Origin: Candidatus Poribacteria bacterium
GTDB lineage: Bacteria; Poribacteria; DTPJ01; WJIO01
Assembly (NCBI GenBank): GCA_014730235.1
Contig: WJIO01000075.1
Location: 1-8,257, forward strand
DNA length: 8,257 bases
Reading direction: 5' to 3'
Shown here: in pieces, positions 506 to 8,257 of the stretch
Layout: every line of letters starts with the position of its first letter
Numbering within the stretch: position 1 is the stretch's first letter
The notes under the pieces: model-generated
Told to the model about the DNA's origin: nothing
Seen by the model: only the letters and a program-made list of their open reading frames with translations
The model's database searches: none
Position numbers and translations under genes: made by a program

Positions 506-1495
506 ATGCAAAACTCAAAGAAAAAGAATCCCAAGGGCCTGGTACCGTGCGGTGCGGGTATCAATTACACCATCTGGCAGGCCCATGAAGAGAGATTGGA
601 AAAGCTCAAAGAAGAATGTCCCCACGTTAGAATAGGTGGCAAACCAAGTAGTGATTCACCGCGCTCTGTTGAACATAAGAGTCGTGATGCATGGGGTTGC
701 CTCTGGCATTTTCCAGGGATGGATCTTGACGGTCAAGTCATCGAACATCCGCTGGATAGCTGGGACAAGTTCGAGTCATGGCAGCCTCCTTCGGTAGAAG
801 AAGCAGTCCAGAACATCAAGAAAAAAGCCAGGGAATCTCAAGAAGGGAAGGTTCATAGCGCTGGCATGGAGCATGGGTTTCTATTCCTGCGTCTGACATA
901 TTTACGTGGCTTTCAGAATTTCATGATCGATGTGGCGGAGGAAAATCCCAGGATCTATAAACTCCGGGATATTGTAACTAACTACTGGTACGAGATCGTA
1001 AAAGCCAGTCTTGACTGTGGAGCAACGCATGTGGGTGGCGGTGACGATCTAGGGATGCAGGACAGATTACCTGTTAGTCCTGAAGCGTGGCGGAAACTAC
1101 TAAAACCCGGTTTCAGTCGTATATTTGGTCTGGCTCGTGAGCGGAATGTTCCATTAAGCCTTCATACCGATGGCTACATAGTTGACATTATTCCCGACCT
1201 TATTGAGATCGGTGTGACAAGTCTGAATCCACAAGATCTGGTTAACGGGTTGGATAATCTGGAAAGACTTGCCAAAGGGAAAGTTCACATCGCTCTGGAC
1301 ATTGACCGACAAAATATCACAGTTTTTGGCACAGTGGAAGAGATCGACATCCATATTAAGAATTGCATAAGAATCCTGGGTTCACCAGAAGGTGGACTTA
1401 GTCTTGGTTGGGGAGTCTATCCGGGTACTCCCATTGAAAATATCGAAGCCACCGTCCGGGCAATGGAGAAGTATCATGATATGTGGGCAAACTGA
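506..1495 (+). CDS. Uroporphyrinogen decarboxylase (URO-D) superfamily protein, MtaA/CmuA-like, function unknown
   Basis: The 329-residue product has the hallmarks of the URO-D/methyltransferase TIM-barrel superfamily, close to the usual 330-370 length. Visible segments are DAWGCLW (61-67) followed by IEHPLDSWDKFESWQPP, the GGGDDLGMQDRLPVSPEAW block (177-195), LHTDG (219-223), IIPDLIEIGVTSLNP (228-242), and a C-terminal GWGVYPGTPIENI (301-313). True HemE carries an N-terminal RQAGR-type arginine motif, which is absent. Corrinoid:coenzyme M methyltransferases such as MtaA bind zinc with His-X-Cys plus a distal Cys; here the matching site is His-Thr-Asp-Gly, so the zinc cysteine is missing. A classic haem or methyltransfer role is therefore not supported. 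No corrinoid-binding domain gene is present nearby. The start has a good ribosome site, AGGAGA at 495-500, five bases before ATG. It may be cotranscribed with the following genes, though a 129-nt gap separates it from the next. No signal peptide is seen, so it is probably cytoplasmic. Confidence 0.85.
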   Translation: MQNSKKKNPKGLVPCGAGINYTIWQAHEERLEKLKEECPHVRIGGKPSSDSPRSVEHKSRDAWGCLWHFPGMDLDGQVIEHPLDSWDKFESWQPPSVEEAVQNIKKKARESQEGKVHSAGMEHGFLFLRLTYLRGFQNFMIDVAEENPRIYKLRDIVTNYWYEIVKASLDCGATHVGGGDDLGMQDRLPVSPEAWRKLLKPGFSRIFGLARERNVPLSLHTDGYIVDIIPDLIEIGVTSLNPQDLVNGLDNLERLAKGKVHIALDIDRQNITVFGTVEEIDIHIKNCIRILGSPEGGLSLGWGVYPGTPIENIEATVRAMEKYHDMWAN

Positions 1496-1611
1496 TATAT
1501 TCGTGACATATAAATTGCAGCCAATTATTTGCAGTGCGTAAAGAGCAGACACGTATTTAGAAAGGTTGGTTTACACTTACTGAATCTAAATAAAAATATT
1601 GAGTTGTAAAT

Positions 1612-1617
1612 GGAGGG
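1612..1617 (+). promoter_or_regulatory. Ribosome binding site fixing the start at 1625
   Basis: GGAGGG lies seven bases before ATG 1625. An in-frame ATG at 1610 overlaps this site and has no Shine-Dalgarno of its own, so 1625 is the better start and five codons are removed from the longest possible reading frame. Confidence 0.8.
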
Positions 1618-1624
1618 AACAGTT

Positions 1625-2689
1625 ATGAGTGCTAAAACTATTGATATTAATGTGGAAGACACTCAGTTATTCAAGAAGGTACTTGGCTGTCTTGCCATTG
1701 GTGCTATTGGAGATAATCTGGGCCGCCCGGTGGAAAATTGGCATTATAAGAATATAGAGGAAAAATATGGTCGTCTGGAAGACCCCTGGGCAGACTTGAA
1801 GGGTGGAGACACTGGTTTCGATGTGGGAACAGACGACACTGCTCTAGGTCAGATCCTTTGCCATTGCTATATTGATAAGGGACGACCAATACTGGTTGAA
1901 GATTATGCCGAATACTGGCTCAAGGAGATGAATCCCATCAAGTTTTTCTTCTGCCTCAGGAACACCTATGAACTCCTGAAAATGGGATACTCCCCACGAC
2001 TCAGCGGTGCGCTCAATATTGTCACCGGTTCTGGTCTGATGGCAATCAATCCGGTGGGTATTTTCAACGCTGGCGATCCCGAAAGCGCATATGTAGACGG
2101 TGTCAACTTATCATCAATTGTTCAGAGAGATCTTGATATTTTCATACCGGGCATTATTGCCGCGGCTATTGCTGAGGCCTTTCGTCCTGGAGCTAACTGC
2201 GAAAGCGTAATTGATGCCGCTATTAAAGTTGCTCCTGCCAAGTCCATTATCACCTTTGACAAACGAGATCCGGACAATCTAAAGGATACTTTAATTCAGG
2301 CTGTAGAGGTGGCCAGCAGGTATGATGATGTATTTTCTGCACGAGAAGGTCTTTATGAAAAGTGTCTTCAGTATGCCGCCATTGATCCACAGGAAGTAAT
2401 AGCACTGACTTTTGGTATCTTTAAGGCTTCTCGAGGCGACACGCGTATGGCCGTGATAGGTGGGGCTAATACAGGACGTGATGCAGACACTCTGGGTAGC
2501 TTAAATGGACAGATATGTGGAGCGCTCAATGGTGTGGATTCTGCTCCTCAGAAATGGATGGAAGGCCTGAAGCAATGCTCAGGTTGGGATAAATTTTATG
2601 AGACTGCTGTGAAAATGACGGAACTGGTGATTGAAAAGAATAAGAAAACTCAACAAAGAGTAAATCAGATTCAAAGCATGATGCAATAG
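1625..2689 (+). CDS. ADP-ribosylglycohydrolase (ARH/DraG) family hydrolase
   Basis: This 354-residue protein (start MSAKTIDINVED) shows the whole metal-site pattern of the all-helical ARH fold: GAIGDNLGRPVE at residues 26-37, GTDDT at 68-72, a mid-protein MAINPVGIFNAGDPESA segment (139-155), and a C-terminal NTGRDADTLGSLNGQICGALNG (282-303, quoted in parts: GRDADT at 284-289). In characterised members the Asp residues of TDDT and of the C-terminal D-x-DT motif bind two magnesium ions that activate water to cleave an N- or O-glycosidic bond to ribose. All these residues are present, so an active hydrolase is likely. The GRDADT form, rather than the GGDTDT of DraG, marks a branch common in catabolic clusters, where the substrate may be a nucleoside-like or glycosylated metabolite and not ADP-ribosyl-protein; that is inference. 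It is cytoplasmic by appearance. Its stop is three bases before the transporter start, which indicates a shared transcript. Confidence 0.88.
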   Translation: MSAKTIDINVEDTQLFKKVLGCLAIGAIGDNLGRPVENWHYKNIEEKYGRLEDPWADLKGGDTGFDVGTDDTALGQILCHCYIDKGRPILVEDYAEYWLKEMNPIKFFFCLRNTYELLKMGYSPRLSGALNIVTGSGLMAINPVGIFNAGDPESAYVDGVNLSSIVQRDLDIFIPGIIAAAIAEAFRPGANCESVIDAAIKVAPAKSIITFDKRDPDNLKDTLIQAVEVASRYDDVFSAREGLYEKCLQYAAIDPQEVIALTFGIFKASRGDTRMAVIGGANTGRDADTLGSLNGQICGALNGVDSAPQKWMEGLKQCSGWDKFYETAVKMTELVIEKNKKTQQRVNQIQSMMQ

Positions 2690-2692
2690 GAT

Positions 2693-3958
2693 ATGGAAAA
2701 AGAAGAAAAAACATCGTATAAGAATTCACAAAAACATGATCCCTACCTCGCAATGCGCCAACGGAATTATCGCCTGTATATCCTTGGCACCATTTTCACC
2801 ATGGTCGGGGTGCGTATTCAGGGAATGGCTATTGCATGGGAGATATACAACCGTACTGACGAGGCATTTGCTCTTGGCCTCACCGCCCTGATGCAAGGTT
2901 TGCCCACAATGCTCCTTGCTTTGCCTGCTGGATACCTGGCTGATGCCTTTAACCGGCGCAAGGTTGTGATACTCTCTCTTTTAGGAGCGACTCTGACCTC
3001 TCTGGGTCTGGCGGTGCTATCATATACCAAAAGCCCTGTGGTTTTTATGTATATCGTTTTATTTCTCGATGCAACTATCATGGCTCTGGGAAGACCTGCG
3101 CGAACTGCACTCTTACCGCAGATTGTTCCCCGGGAAGTGTTTCCAAATGCCGTGACGTGGAGCAGCAGTATAAGACAACTGATATCTGTTTTTGGTCCGG
3201 CAATCGGCGGATTTATTCTGCTGTGGAACATCCCTGCCGCTTACGTCATCTGTGCTGCTGGATCATTATCTTACATATTCCTGCTGTTGAGGGTAACGAT
3301 AAGAGAAGTTCCCAAACAGTCAGAGCGCGCATCGATCCGGACACTACTGGCTGGTATCAATTTTGTCAAGAAGGAAAGGCTTGTTCTGACTCTCATGGCT
3401 TTGGATATGTTTGCTGTCCTGCTGGGTGGTGCTGTTTATTTACTGCCTATATTCGCTAGAGATATACTTCAGATAGGTGAGCGCGGTTTCGGTATGCTCC
3501 GCGCTGCTCCTGCAGCCGGAGCGTTTTGTATGGCAATCCTCTTGGTATATCTCCCACCCATGAAACGTGCCGGGCGAAACTTGCTATTGGCAGTAGCGGG
3601 ATTTGGCGTAGCAACTATTGTGTTCGGGTTCTCAAAGTCATTCTGGCTATCGCTGGCTATGCTATTTCTGACGGGTTTGTTTGATAATGTAAGTATGGTA
3701 ATTCGGCACACACTCATTCAGTTGCTGACTCCAGATGAAATGCGCGGTAGAGTATCCGCAGTCAACAGCGTGTTTATCGGCGCCTCAAACCAACTGGGCG
3801 GATTCGAATCAGGCATTGTTGCCCATTGGTTTGGGCCTGTCTTTTCAGTTGTGAGTGGCGGGATTGGAACTATCCTGGTCGTGCTTCTGACGGCAGTTGC
3901 TTCACGAAGACTACGCAATTTCGGCACAATACATGAAGCCAAACCCTCCTCAGACTAG
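2693..3958 (+). CDS. MFS transporter, EntS-like (MFS_3) family
   Basis: This 421-residue hydrophobic protein with about 12 predicted membrane helices belongs to the major facilitator superfamily. After a short charged N-terminus comes DPYLAMRQRNYRLYILG, typical of the first helix entry in this branch. The loop 2-3 motif A appears as PAGYLADAFNRRKVV (78-92), followed by the family sequence ALGRPARTALLPQIVP (131-146). The C-terminal half has TPDEMRGRVSAVNSVFIG (346-363) with SNQLGGFESG (365-374), which is diagnostic of the EntS/MFS_3 group. Known relatives export siderophores or drugs, but many are uncharacterised and sit in sugar or nucleoside clusters, so direction and cargo are open. The ATG at 2693 follows the preceding stop by three bases with only a weak Shine-Dalgarno, which fits coupled translation with the hydrolase gene. 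No alternative start is better placed: the next Met in frame (2753) would cut off the conserved DPY segment. Confidence 0.9.
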   Translation: MEKEEKTSYKNSQKHDPYLAMRQRNYRLYILGTIFTMVGVRIQGMAIAWEIYNRTDEAFALGLTALMQGLPTMLLALPAGYLADAFNRRKVVILSLLGATLTSLGLAVLSYTKSPVVFMYIVLFLDATIMALGRPARTALLPQIVPREVFPNAVTWSSSIRQLISVFGPAIGGFILLWNIPAAYVICAAGSLSYIFLLLRVTIREVPKQSERASIRTLLAGINFVKKERLVLTLMALDMFAVLLGGAVYLLPIFARDILQIGERGFGMLRAAPAAGAFCMAILLVYLPPMKRAGRNLLLAVAGFGVATIVFGFSKSFWLSLAMLFLTGLFDNVSMVIRHTLIQLLTPDEMRGRVSAVNSVFIGASNQLGGFESGIVAHWFGPVFSVVSGGIGTILVVLLTAVASRRLRNFGTIHEAKPSSD

Positions 3959-4076: not shown

Positions 4077-4131
4077 CGCGCAGGAATATTTACAGACATA
4101 AAAGAACAGAATAAGTTCATGGCATTGGTAG

Positions 4132-4139
4132 AGGAGAGG
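4132..4139 (+). promoter_or_regulatory. Ribosome binding site fixing the GRE start at 4143
   Basis: AGGAGAGG lies just before ATGATG. Counting from AGGAG (4132-4136), ATG 4143 is six bases away, while ATG 4140 abuts the site and ATG 4119 is upstream of it. The GRE family's usual N-terminus (TERVNRL close to the start) also favours 4143. Confidence 0.8.
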
Positions 4140-4142
4140 ATG

Positions 4143-6422
4143 ATGATTCCAGTTACTGAACGTGTTAATAGGCTTAAAGCCGAACTTTTCGAGACAAAAA
4201 ACAGTGTCTGTTTTGAACGAGCAAAGATTATAACTGAATCATATAAGAAAACAGAGGGACAGCATTCGGCTTTGAGAAGAGCAAAAGCTTTATATGACGT
4301 ATTTGCCCAAATGCCAATATTTATTCGTGAAGGAGAACTTATTGTCGGACAGCGTGCATCTTCACTGGGGGCGCGGTCAGTTTATCCTGAGTTTAACCTT
4401 CATGGTTTGAATCGCAAGAATACACCAACAGCGATATGGGACTACTGGCATGACCGATGTATAGGTGCTATGGTAAAATCTGCCCATCCTGCGCGATTAA
4501 AGCTGGTGGAGAGTGAACTCGCGGCGGGTTTCTGTACAGGAACATCAAGTGGATTCGGGCATGTTATTGTAGATTATGAAAAAGCTTTAAATCGTGGTTT
4601 TAAGTTCATTATAGCTGAGGCAGATGAAATACTGAATAATACTCCTGAGAGTGACTTAGAGGGAAAAGCTTTTCTGGAATCAGTTAAAATAGCAGGAGAA
4701 GGTATTATCCTGTGGGCTAATCGCTATGCAGATATGGCAGATCAGAAGGTAAGTAGCGAAAGTGATCTTGTAAGAAAAAACGAGTTAAGACGGATTGCCA
4801 GAGCATGTCGTCATGTTCCTGCTGAACCTGCAAGAAATTTCTTCGAGGCTATTCAATGCTTCTGGCTGGTACATCTGGCAATGCACATTGAGCAATATGG
4901 CTGGTCAATCTCAGCAGGTAGATTTGACCAATATATGTATCCATTTTATATTCAGGATATTGAATCAGGCGCGCTGTCTAGAGAGCAAGCATGGGAATTG
5001 GTGCTTAATCTGTGGGTCAAGTTTATGGAGAACGTTGGCACACGCATCAAGGAATCAACTTTCCAGAACATGACTCTGGGTGGGCAAGATCAAGATGGTA
5101 ATGATCAATCTAATGAGTTGTCATTTCTCTGTATTGATGCCACTATCGCTCTACATGTTCATCAACCAGCACTATCTGTAAGATGGAACCCCAATATATC
5201 CCCTGACTTCTGGAGACATGTTCATCAGGCGATCTCAAAAGGACTCGGTCTGCCGGCACTTTTCAATGATCAAGTCATAATACCTGCATTAATAGCTCAT
5301 GGTGTATCTCATGAAGATGCCATTGGCTACGGGATTGTTGGCTGTGTAGAAGCCAGCATACCGGGTAAGGAGCAGGGAGTTACAGCAGGAGGACATATTA
5401 ATATCGCAAAAGCTCTTGCACTGGCACTGAATGACGGAAAGTCAATGATAACAGATAAACAGATCGGGCTTCCTACTGGCAATCCGAAAACTTTTCTTTC
5501 ATTTGATGACCTTTGGCAAGCCTATGTTACCCAGGTGGAATATCTGGCTGGACTGAATATACTTGCAACACACATCGCAGGAGAACAGCAAAAGCGCACG
5601 GGATATTGTCCTCTTATGTCATCTCTACTTGACGATTGTCTCGAAAACAGGCGTGATCTGGTTTTCGGTGGAACTCGATATAACTTACCGGGGATTGCTA
5701 TCTACGGTCCCAGCAATGTCTATGATGGCCTGATGGCTATAAAGCTTTGTGTCTGCGAGGAAAAGTTAATCACATGGGCAGAACTACATGAAGCTCTATT
5801 GAATGACTTTGAAGGAGCAGAATTTATAAGCCAGGTTCTAATAAATAGCGCGCCAAAGTTTGGAAACGGTATAGAAGAAGTGGATAATCTGGCAAATGAG
5901 GTTAATGCTATCCATGCAGATTTCTCATGGAAACAGGTGGATTCAAGGAATGGTCGCTATACCTGTGGCGTGTGGCCGGTTACGGCTCATGTTGGTGCTG
6001 GACACTGGGTTGGGGCGACACCAGATGGACGTCATAGCGGAACACCTCTTGTTGATGGAGTTGGCGCATGTCATGGGATGGACAAAAATGGCCCAACTGC
6101 TTTACTTCAGTCTGTTTCAAGGCTAAATAACATAGACCATTGGCCTGCTGGTAATGTATGTAATATAAAATTTTCAAAGAACAATATAAATTCAGGTGAA
6201 TGGCTGGATAGTTTTCAGGATCTGACAACTACTTTCATGAATATGGGCGGACAGCAGTTGCAGATAAACGTGGTTGACGCAGAAACATTAAGAGATGCAA
6301 AGGCCAATCCAGAACTTCACAGCGACCTGATAATAAGAGTTGCTGGATACAGTGCGTATTTTACTCAGCTTGGTTCAGACGTTCAGGATGAGATAATTAT
6401 GAGAAGCGAGTATACAGTTTAG
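4143..6422 (+). CDS. Glycyl radical enzyme, pyruvate formate-lyase-like family (dehydratase/lyase type), substrate unknown
   Basis: This 759-residue protein is a full-length glycyl radical enzyme. The PFL-type N-terminal domain starts TERVNRLKAELFETK and contains MPIFIREGELIVGQ (57-70). Mid-protein are EQYGWSISAGRFDQYMYPFY (250-269) and HQPALSVRW (340-348). The thiyl-radical loop reads YGIVGCVEAS with Cys401 and the general base Glu403. The C-terminal glycyl loop is IIRVAGYSAYF with Gly735, followed by LGSDVQDEIIMRSEY, so the radical site is intact about 25 residues from the end. A single Cys followed by Val-Glu excludes true pyruvate formate-lyase, which has adjacent cysteines, and places it with the GCVE enzymes (glycerol, propanediol and hydroxyproline dehydratases, choline and isethionate lyases, arylacetate decarboxylases). 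I cannot match its pocket to any one of these. Activity needs a radical SAM activase, which is not in the window. It has its own promoter region and is oxygen sensitive by class. Confidence 0.92.
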   Translation: MIPVTERVNRLKAELFETKNSVCFERAKIITESYKKTEGQHSALRRAKALYDVFAQMPIFIREGELIVGQRASSLGARSVYPEFNLHGLNRKNTPTAIWDYWHDRCIGAMVKSAHPARLKLVESELAAGFCTGTSSGFGHVIVDYEKALNRGFKFIIAEADEILNNTPESDLEGKAFLESVKIAGEGIILWANRYADMADQKVSSESDLVRKNELRRIARACRHVPAEPARNFFEAIQCFWLVHLAMHIEQYGWSISAGRFDQYMYPFYIQDIESGALSREQAWELVLNLWVKFMENVGTRIKESTFQNMTLGGQDQDGNDQSNELSFLCIDATIALHVHQPALSVRWNPNISPDFWRHVHQAISKGLGLPALFNDQVIIPALIAHGVSHEDAIGYGIVGCVEASIPGKEQGVTAGGHINIAKALALALNDGKSMITDKQIGLPTGNPKTFLSFDDLWQAYVTQVEYLAGLNILATHIAGEQQKRTGYCPLMSSLLDDCLENRRDLVFGGTRYNLPGIAIYGPSNVYDGLMAIKLCVCEEKLITWAELHEALLNDFEGAEFISQVLINSAPKFGNGIEEVDNLANEVNAIHADFSWKQVDSRNGRYTCGVWPVTAHVGAGHWVGATPDGRHSGTPLVDGVGACHGMDKNGPTALLQSVSRLNNIDHWPAGNVCNIKFSKNNINSGEWLDSFQDLTTTFMNMGGQQLQINVVDAETLRDAKANPELHSDLIIRVAGYSAYFTQLGSDVQDEIIMRSEYTV

Positions 6423-6733: not shown

Positions 6734-7850
6734 TCATGAAAGAGCCATGTAATTGAGCATACAGACGCAGAGATGAGCAGATATTCCGCTGAAATGTCTC
6801 ATATGGAAATCAGGTAAGTAAACCAAGGCTTTGTTTGGCGTTCCTTATCACTGTTTCTATCTTCCATCTCTTACTATATTCCTCAATTATCCAGGGTCCA
6901 TTGGCTTCCAGATTGTTGGTCACTAACAGGAAATATTGTGGACTGCGTTTGGGATCATATACAACCATGGCATACACCCATCCTTATTTGGGAAGGTAGC
7001 AGCGGCCAATGTTGTAATACCATACTCCTTTTCGATGCAGGAGCTTCATTTTGCTCTTTGACATAGAGATGAGTTCAGAGGCTTTCTTCTTGATAGTGGG
7101 ATTGCCTTTCTCATCAGTAAAAAGGAAATTCCGGTTGGTCTTGCTCTGAGTTATCCATAGCATTCGGTTTTGATCCACGGCTTTGCATAGTTCCACAGCG
7201 AAGTACCAGGTGTCGAAAACAACTACCATTCCTGATATATTCAGATTAGCTTTCCTGGCTTGTCTGCCAAAGTGTTTCACTGTGGCTATTGCCATACTTA
7301 CCTTGCTCTCATATCCTGGAACACAGGATGGAACCCAGGCTCTGCAGGCTATGGGAATAGCTATTTCCGGAAGATATATACAGGCAAGAAATGCTACATG
7401 ACCTATGCCTATTCTGCCTTTACTGACCCTTACTCCTGAAATGTTCTCCATGTGTATGCCGAACTTCTCCATGGAAGTATCATCAAGAATCATTACTCCA
7501 TTCTTTGCCATGTCTGGAAAACGCTTCTGATGAAACAGAAGTTCATCTGACACAGATACTATCAGTTGCCACCAGGAAAGGGGATTTACCTTATCCCAAA
7601 GATATGTAAATACTCTCTGATGGTATGGCAGATTATCTGCCAGTTGGTTCATGGAACTGGCGTTTATAAATGGCAGATAGGTCATATGCTGGATATTCTC
7701 GTTGAATGGTGTTCCGTGGTGTTTGTTTATGCCCATGTTACATAACTTTTTATCTATCTTCAATTCCTTCCACACAATCATGAGAAATGGAAGGACTGAT
7801 ATTGACCCTTGAAATATTGATACTAATGTTTGTATACTCAGGTAATTCAC
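6734..7850 (-). pseudogene. Broken DDE transposase, IS4-like (Y(2)R(3)E(6)K signature)
   Basis: Reading the minus strand from a GTG at 7850, the frame encodes 288 residues and stops at TAA (6986-6984). The catalytic first Asp is in VMILDDTSMEK (Asp123) and the second in VVVFDTWYF (Asp213). The same frame goes on past the TAA as GWVYAMVVYDPKRSPQYFLL and reaches YSKRWKIETVIRNAKQ, an exact Y(2)R(3)E(6)K signature with the third catalytic residue at codon 332, before TGA at 6812-6810. Shifting by one base near 6814 restores PDFHMRHF and then AHLCVCMLNYMALS, the typical family C-terminus, ending at TGA 6736-6734. So the gene has one nonsense and one frameshift lesion, and the first open part lacks the catalytic Glu: the element cannot transpose on its own. 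The true start is unsure because a TAA directly precedes the GTG and the ribosome site is poor. IS4 versus IS701 grouping is not settled. Confidence 0.85.
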
Positions 7851-7981: not shown

Positions 7982-8034
7982 TAAACCAAGTATAAAGTTT
8001 ATACTTGGTTTAATTCATCCAAGCATAAATTTTA
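7982..8034. repeat. 14-bp inverted repeat with a degenerate third copy
   Basis: TAAACCAAGTATAA (7982-7995) and TTATACTTGGTTTA (7999-8012) are perfect arms around a three-base loop. A related direct copy, TCCAAGCATAAATTTTA, follows at 8018-8034 and matches the left arm region with a few changes. It has no strong GC stem or T-run and so does not look like an ordinary terminator. Confidence 0.6.
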
Positions 8035-8042
8035 CATCCCTG

Positions 8043-8070
8043 TGTTATTGCGAAGGACGGAGTAGCAAAT
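8043..8070. repeat. Degenerate REP-like dispersed repeat
   Basis: TGTTATTGCGAAGGACGGAG followed by TAGCAAAT resembles a decayed copy of the dispersed intergenic repeat of the form TGTCATTGCGA-n-GGAGCGAAGCAATC seen in many environmental bacterial genomes. Recognition is from memory, and only one copy lies in the window. Confidence 0.35.
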
Positions 8071-8163
8071 AAAGTTTTTAGTCTGTATCAAAATTTTTGG
8101 CTCATCCAGTTTAAGAGTGGAAGTGTAAAAGACATTGTCCAATTAAGAAAAAATATCCTCCAT

Positions 8164-8214
8164 TTGTCATTCCTGCTTCAAGCTTTTTGAAAAAGCTTGA
8201 AGCAGGAATGACAA
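8164..8214. repeat. 51-bp near-perfect palindrome (25-bp arms, 1-base centre)
   Basis: The arm 8164-8188 starts TTGTCATTCCTGCTTCAAGC and ends in five T; 8190-8214 is its exact reverse complement, with a single G (8189) between. Such long perfect palindromes around TCATTCCTGC are typical of REP/MITE-like intergenic units. It could act as a bidirectional transcription stop as RNA, but no gene abuts it within the window. Confidence 0.85.
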
Positions 8215-8257
8215 GCTGAGAAAATTTTCAAATTATTACCATACTCAAACCGGAAGA

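Follow-up and report, generated by a model that had tools for sequence, protein, structure and literature searches.

The glycyl radical enzyme (GRE) encoded in the window, which is the entire 8257-b contig C440 of a 5.5-Mb draft genome labelled G000, forms together with five orthologs a real subfamily outside the characterised groups with which it was compared. With moderate confidence, we consider it a catalytically competent eliminase that is related most closely, among solved structures, to the B12-independent diol dehydratases, that is activated in trans, and that acts on a small hydroxylated, probably sugar-derived substrate. By means of a radical carried on the protein itself, GREs remove water or comparable groups from small molecules in the absence of oxygen. 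Their eliminations would otherwise depend on coenzyme B12, and the assignment of new members has brought metabolic pathways to light. The usual arrangement is one activase per GRE. Since many GRE groups are still unassigned, one more such subfamily is a limited surprise, to which the occurrence of genomes rich in GREs and poor in activases adds; this genome pattern is a more interesting lead than the subfamily itself.

The GRE gene and its subfamily

The window presents the following features around and within the GRE gene:

506..1495, + strand: URO-D superfamily member that lacks the HxC zinc motif (PF01208, 5e-14; motif scan)
1610..2689, + strand: ADP-ribosylglycohydrolase-fold protein (PF03747, 6.7e-30)
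2693..3958, + strand: MFS transporter, EntS-like (PF05977/PF07690; NF007792 at 186 bits, below the cutoff of 324)
4131..4139, + strand: Shine-Dalgarno-like GAGGAGAGG before ATG 4143 (direct reading)
4143..6422, + strand: GRE gene, with an alternative upstream start at 4119 (PF02901, 4.7e-175; PF01228, 4.3e-23; orthologs at 64-68% identity)
5151..5186, + strand: LHVHQPALSVRW segment, residues 345-356 from start 4119 (translation)
5340..5396, + strand: Cys loop GCVEASIPGKEQGVTAGGH, residues 408-426 from 4119 (translation; Cys and Glu present in every family member)
6336..6362, + strand: glycyl radical loop RVAGYSAYF with Gly743, or 735 from 4143 (PF01228; Gly invariant in 22 GREs)

The GRE frame is open over 4119-6422 (767 aa) and encodes 759 aa from ATG 4143. 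The latter start is favoured because of the Shine-Dalgarno-like element that precedes it and because the start Met of the orthologs aligns with Met9 of the 4119 frame. Residue numbers given for pocket and structure nevertheless count from 4119, and are lower by eight when counted from 4143. Both Pfam profiles score far above cutoff, at levels that exclude a chance match, and none of the 22 aligned GREs departs from Cys409, Arg740 and Gly743: membership of the GRE superfamily is confirmed by PF02901 and PF01228 and by the conserved Cys and Gly. The first-pass annotation had described the thiyl Cys401, the base Glu403 and the radical Gly735 as intact, and translation from ATG 4143 bears this out (409, 411 and 743 from 4119); the two flanking signatures that it singled out were both found. 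A promoter and terminator scan of the window gave counts no higher than in shuffles.

The same annotation had been unable to place the enzyme with CutC, HypD, IslA, glycerol dehydratase (GD) or arylacetate decarboxylase, and had left its specificity unassigned. Both judgements hold. The window GRE reaches about half or less of any NCBIfam equivalog cutoff: 512 bits against 1100 for HypD (NF043068), 420 against 1050 for CutC (TIGR04394), 530 and 439 against 1000 for HpsG (NF048011 and NF048009), 377 against 1100 for indoleacetate decarboxylase (NF033718), 286 against 1150 for arylacetate decarboxylase (NF033715), 113 against 994 for PFL (TIGR01255) and 478 against 1109 for the PflD type (NF007437). 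The adjacent Cys-Cys pair of pyruvate formate-lyase is absent from the window GRE, which has Gly-Cys-Val-Glu at the site. Identity to the characterised GREs aligned is at most 39%, and the pocket differs from those of GD and propanediol dehydratase (PD), HypD, CutC and IslA; a characterised GRE combining high identity with the same pocket, the finding that the annotation had set against novelty, was not found among those compared.

When the GTDB release 220 species genomes were scanned, four orthologs emerged (64-68% identity), each from an Anaerolineae MAG, and a search of 396 Anaerolineae genomes added a fifth (in G343); the other 83 searched genomes of the window's own phylum held none. In a tree of 31 GREs, drawn without IslA, HpsG, HPAD/decarboxylases and BSS, the window GRE and its five orthologs form one clade (support 100), with a divergent paralog from the window's genome (C105) next to it (support 96). 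This clade of six lies apart from the branch comprising HypD, CutC, PflD, YbiW and GD/PD, and GD, PD and 9rco make up a separate clade of their own (support 100). The phmmer scores of IslA, HpsG, the decarboxylases and BSS to the window GRE are all lower than that of GD. Relatives were absent from the viral contigs searched, and plasmid and phage records yielded GREs only at <60% identity.

Compared with two of these Anaerolineae genomes, G000 shows ~74% 16S identity. GC content is 0.43 in the window and 0.60-0.62 in the Anaerolineae loci, and given this strong difference a transfer between the phyla, had there been one, would have to be old; vertical loss is the other possibility. At its end, the window carries a dispersed repeat of 245 bp (8013-8257), present on >30 other G000 contigs at 75-99% identity, which has an internal inverted repeat at ~8150-8228 and looks like a miniature mobile element. 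An IS4/IS701-like transposase ORF (6984-7850, minus strand), with weak sub-cutoff matches, is probably a truncated element. A binning error was considered and is unlikely, since the repeat is common to so many contigs of the genome and the base composition fits (tetranucleotide r 0.88 between window and G000, with a GC content in keeping with the genome).

Neighbouring genes

None of the window's three neighbours has a counterpart of the same form next to the orthologs. A different URO-D-fold protein lies directly downstream of the GRE in L009 and L010, an enolase-superfamily sugar-acid dehydratase is found near the GRE of L012, and a melibiase adjoins that of L062; sulfatases, GH28 and further enolase-superfamily genes adjoin other GREs of Anaerolineae genomes. 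Because neighbours differ between family members and none recurs in all of them, no single pathway is indicated, and the derivation of a pathway from conserved neighbours was rejected. At two orthologous loci, sarcosine-oxidase-like FAD and iron-sulfur proteins are encoded divergently from the GRE (L009:475-3848 and L011:1-1935).

URO-D genes number 69 in G000, 35 in G058 and 33 in G059, far above the needs of haem synthesis. In each of the latter two, both Anaerolineae genomes, a URO-D gene is found within 1 kb of three of the 11 GRE loci, where 0.35 would be expected (P ~0.004 each, the two values not being independent). The single such case among the 16 GRE loci of G000, for which its 69 URO-D genes predict 0.9, fits chance. 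The URO-D protein of the window was rejected as a partner of the GRE, given this chance-level adjacency, the missing HxC motif and its unlikeness to the URO-D proteins beside the orthologs. Five copies of mutually related proteins, the one scanned being DUF6785/DUF6784, lie near four GRE genes of G000 and may be transporter partners (L034:1999-3930, L037:4259-6226, L039:3967-5865 and 10004-11914, and L040:3240-5198).

Structure, pocket and proposed reaction

An AlphaFold2 model of the window GRE, built from 22 sequences, has a mean pLDDT of 90.7. Its top structural matches are 5i2a (PD, Z 51.9) and 1r8w (GD, Z 51.1), with an rmsd of 1.7-1.8 Å over 752 residues, followed by 5fau (CutC, Z 49.1), 9rco (PD, Z 49.0) and 6vxc (HypD, Z 48.4); structures of IslA and HpsG give Z 43, and the decarboxylases 7e7l and 2y8n Z 42-43. 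The best PDB sequence match is likewise 1r8w, at 505 bits.

The CXE motif also occurs in arylacetate decarboxylases, so that CXE alone does not fix the reaction class. GRE eliminases are recognised by C-X-E together with a nearby His, Asp or Gln on beta1 (positions per PMC7077986 and PMC8473560), and all six members present this combination as Cys409-Val-Glu411 and His148. Pocket residues were assigned purely by alignment, with the functional roles of the HypD, CutC and IslA residues taken from the same two papers. In six of six members, the CXE motif, the catalytic His and the glycyl loop are kept, His148 matches HypD His160 and GD His164, and Ser263 matches GD Ser282. Equally invariant are several replacements: Ser144 at the site of HypD Arg156 and IslA Arg189, Trp262 at that of HypD Asp278 and GD His281, Ala423 at that of GD Asp447, His426 at that of HypD Tyr450 and CutC Tyr506, and Val621 at that of HypD Thr645. 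In all, 63 positions are invariant in the family yet invariantly different in GD/PD, including Trp262, Ala423, His426 and Trp619, and ~19 residues between 85 and 152, present in the characterised eliminases compared, are missing. Read in this way, the pocket is of eliminase type, its general-base machinery apparently kept and its substrate-binding wall changed.

GD His281 and Asp447, which from the GD structure we take to be the ligands of the substrate hydroxyls, are kept in GD, PD and 9rco and are replaced by Trp and Ala throughout the family, making glycerol and 1,2-propanediol unlikely substrates. The substrate is probably another small hydroxylated, sugar-derived compound, a type hinted at by the kinship to diol dehydratases and by the sugar-type genes at L012, L062 and other Anaerolineae GREs.

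The sequence has the residues needed to relay the radical (Gly743, Cys409) and to transfer the proton (Glu411, His148). In the mechanism that we propose, with numbering from 4143, a radical-SAM activase encoded elsewhere would put the radical on Gly735; Cys401 would become a thiyl radical and abstract hydrogen from a hydroxyl-bearing carbon of the substrate; and Glu403, tuned by His140, would accept the hydroxyl proton. The ketyl-type radical would then expel the adjacent group, for which water is the likeliest candidate, so that an aldehyde or ketone results, and hydrogen would be re-abstracted.

The leaving group might instead be an amine, sulfite, or an ether or ring oxygen, as in CutC, IslA or YbiW/PflD. 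GRE eliminases have one fold with variable pockets (PMC8473560), the structures of YbiW and PflD contain anhydrohexitol phosphates according to their titles, and sugar-type genes occur beside the family; however, the sites of IslA Arg189 and Gln193 are Ser and His, and those of CutC Asp216 and Tyr506 are both His, so that we regard this departure from water as rather unlikely. It is improbable that the enzyme is a diverged glycerol or 1,2-propanediol dehydratase acting on the ordinary substrate: these dehydratases are the closest solved relatives in both sequence and structure, and equivalents of GD Ser282 and His164 are kept, but the two presumed hydroxyl ligands are lost in six of six members, and GD, PD and 9rco, at 36-39% identity, stand in their own fully supported clade. 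An arylacetate-type decarboxylase, which would also carry CXE, is very improbable in view of scores far under the NF033718 and NF033715 cutoffs and of Z values that are 42-43 with 7e7l and 2y8n but 51-52 with GD and PD.

Activase supply and comparison with known GREs

For the trans-activated eliminase that we prefer, the source of the radical would lie outside the locus: there is no activase gene in the 8.3-kb window, nor near the orthologs as far as their contigs reach. G000 has ~16 GRE loci and two matches above the TIGR02494 cutoff, that is, two canonical activases. The ratio of activases to GRE-like matches is 2:~19 in G057, 2:~14 in G455, 1:~7 in G001, 3:~14 in G058, 3:~15 in G059, 1:~10 in G343 and 3:6 in G060, with two activase fragments to ~6 in G061. 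Overall, 6 to 19 GRE-like matches face one to four activases per genome. These ratios are approximate, since fragments and first-look candidates are among the GREs counted and genes can go missing from draft genomes; the activases counted are those within TIGR02494, and radical-SAM families outside it could also act.

One of the two G000 activases (C407) adjoins a GRE. The other (C371, L049:1016-1933) stands alone, with no GRE in the 1 kb before or the 10 kb after it, and groups with the stand-alone activases G001:C152, G057:C136 and G455:C641 (support 86, the fork being drawn open); within this group, the G000-G001 pair has support 99 and 69% identity. All four genomes are GRE-rich and belong to the window's phylum, and the absence of a neighbouring GRE is firm mainly for C371 because several of the others lie near contig ends. 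Activation of the window GRE in trans by a shared activase is the simplest reading, and a likely one. The scarcity of activases, and their absence nearby, could also mean that the protein is inactive in its host for want of activation, or repurposed, which is hardly probable when all catalytic residues are conserved across two phyla and the genome encodes a stand-alone activase.

Among ten other G000 GREs scanned against NCBIfam, one (L035, HypD) reaches an equivalog cutoff. In the alignment, the Glu of CXE is replaced by Trp in L046 and L047 and by Gln in L037 and L042. In the literature covered, a search found nothing relevant on Anaerolineae GREs or shared activases, which is weak evidence of absence. 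We tentatively suggest that GRE-rich bacteria of two phyla harbour a radiation of at least 12 GREs with new carbohydrate-type substrates, for whose activation one or two promiscuous enzymes suffice, a stand-alone activase among them, and that the window GRE represents one new specificity. Should many GREs share a single activase, that enzyme would provide a general laboratory tool for activating uncharacterised GREs, and the sharing would explain how GREs expanded in a lineage without an expansion of activases.

Set beside known enzymes, the window family shares with GD (1r8w) and PD (5i2a, 9rco) the fold (Z 49-52), the CXE motif, the catalytic His, the Ser282 equivalent and the Gly loop, at 36-39% identity. 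It differs in having Trp for His281, Ala for Asp447, His426 for Phe, Phe382 for Tyr and Trp619 for Tyr, in lacking the ~19 residues between 85 and 152, in its separate clade and in having no adjacent activase. HypD is alike in fold (Z 48.4), CXE and the equivalents of His160 and Phe340, and unlike in its Asp278, Tyr450 and Thr645 (Trp, His and Val in the window family) and in Asp339, which is not conserved in the window GRE; identity is 33%, and the true HypD of G000 is another gene, L035, with 1342 bits against the NF043068 cutoff of 1100. CutC differs at Asp216 and Tyr506, whose sites are occupied by His148 and His426. YbiW and PflD, the 1,5-anhydrohexitol-6-phosphate GREs, have an eliminase-type fold, CXE and sugar-derived substrates, yet show 31-35% identity and lie on a separate branch. 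IslA and HpsG share fold (Z 43) and CXE. HpsG is set apart by the scores of the window GRE, below both HpsG equivalog cutoffs, and IslA by its sulfonate-binding Arg189 and Gln193, which correspond to Ser144 and His148 through the HypD equivalence given in PMC8473560. The site of IslA Arg678 on beta8 is placed tentatively at Gly617. The pocket of the window subfamily is unlike those of the characterised eliminases with which it was compared at these positions, namely GD/PD, HypD, CutC and IslA.
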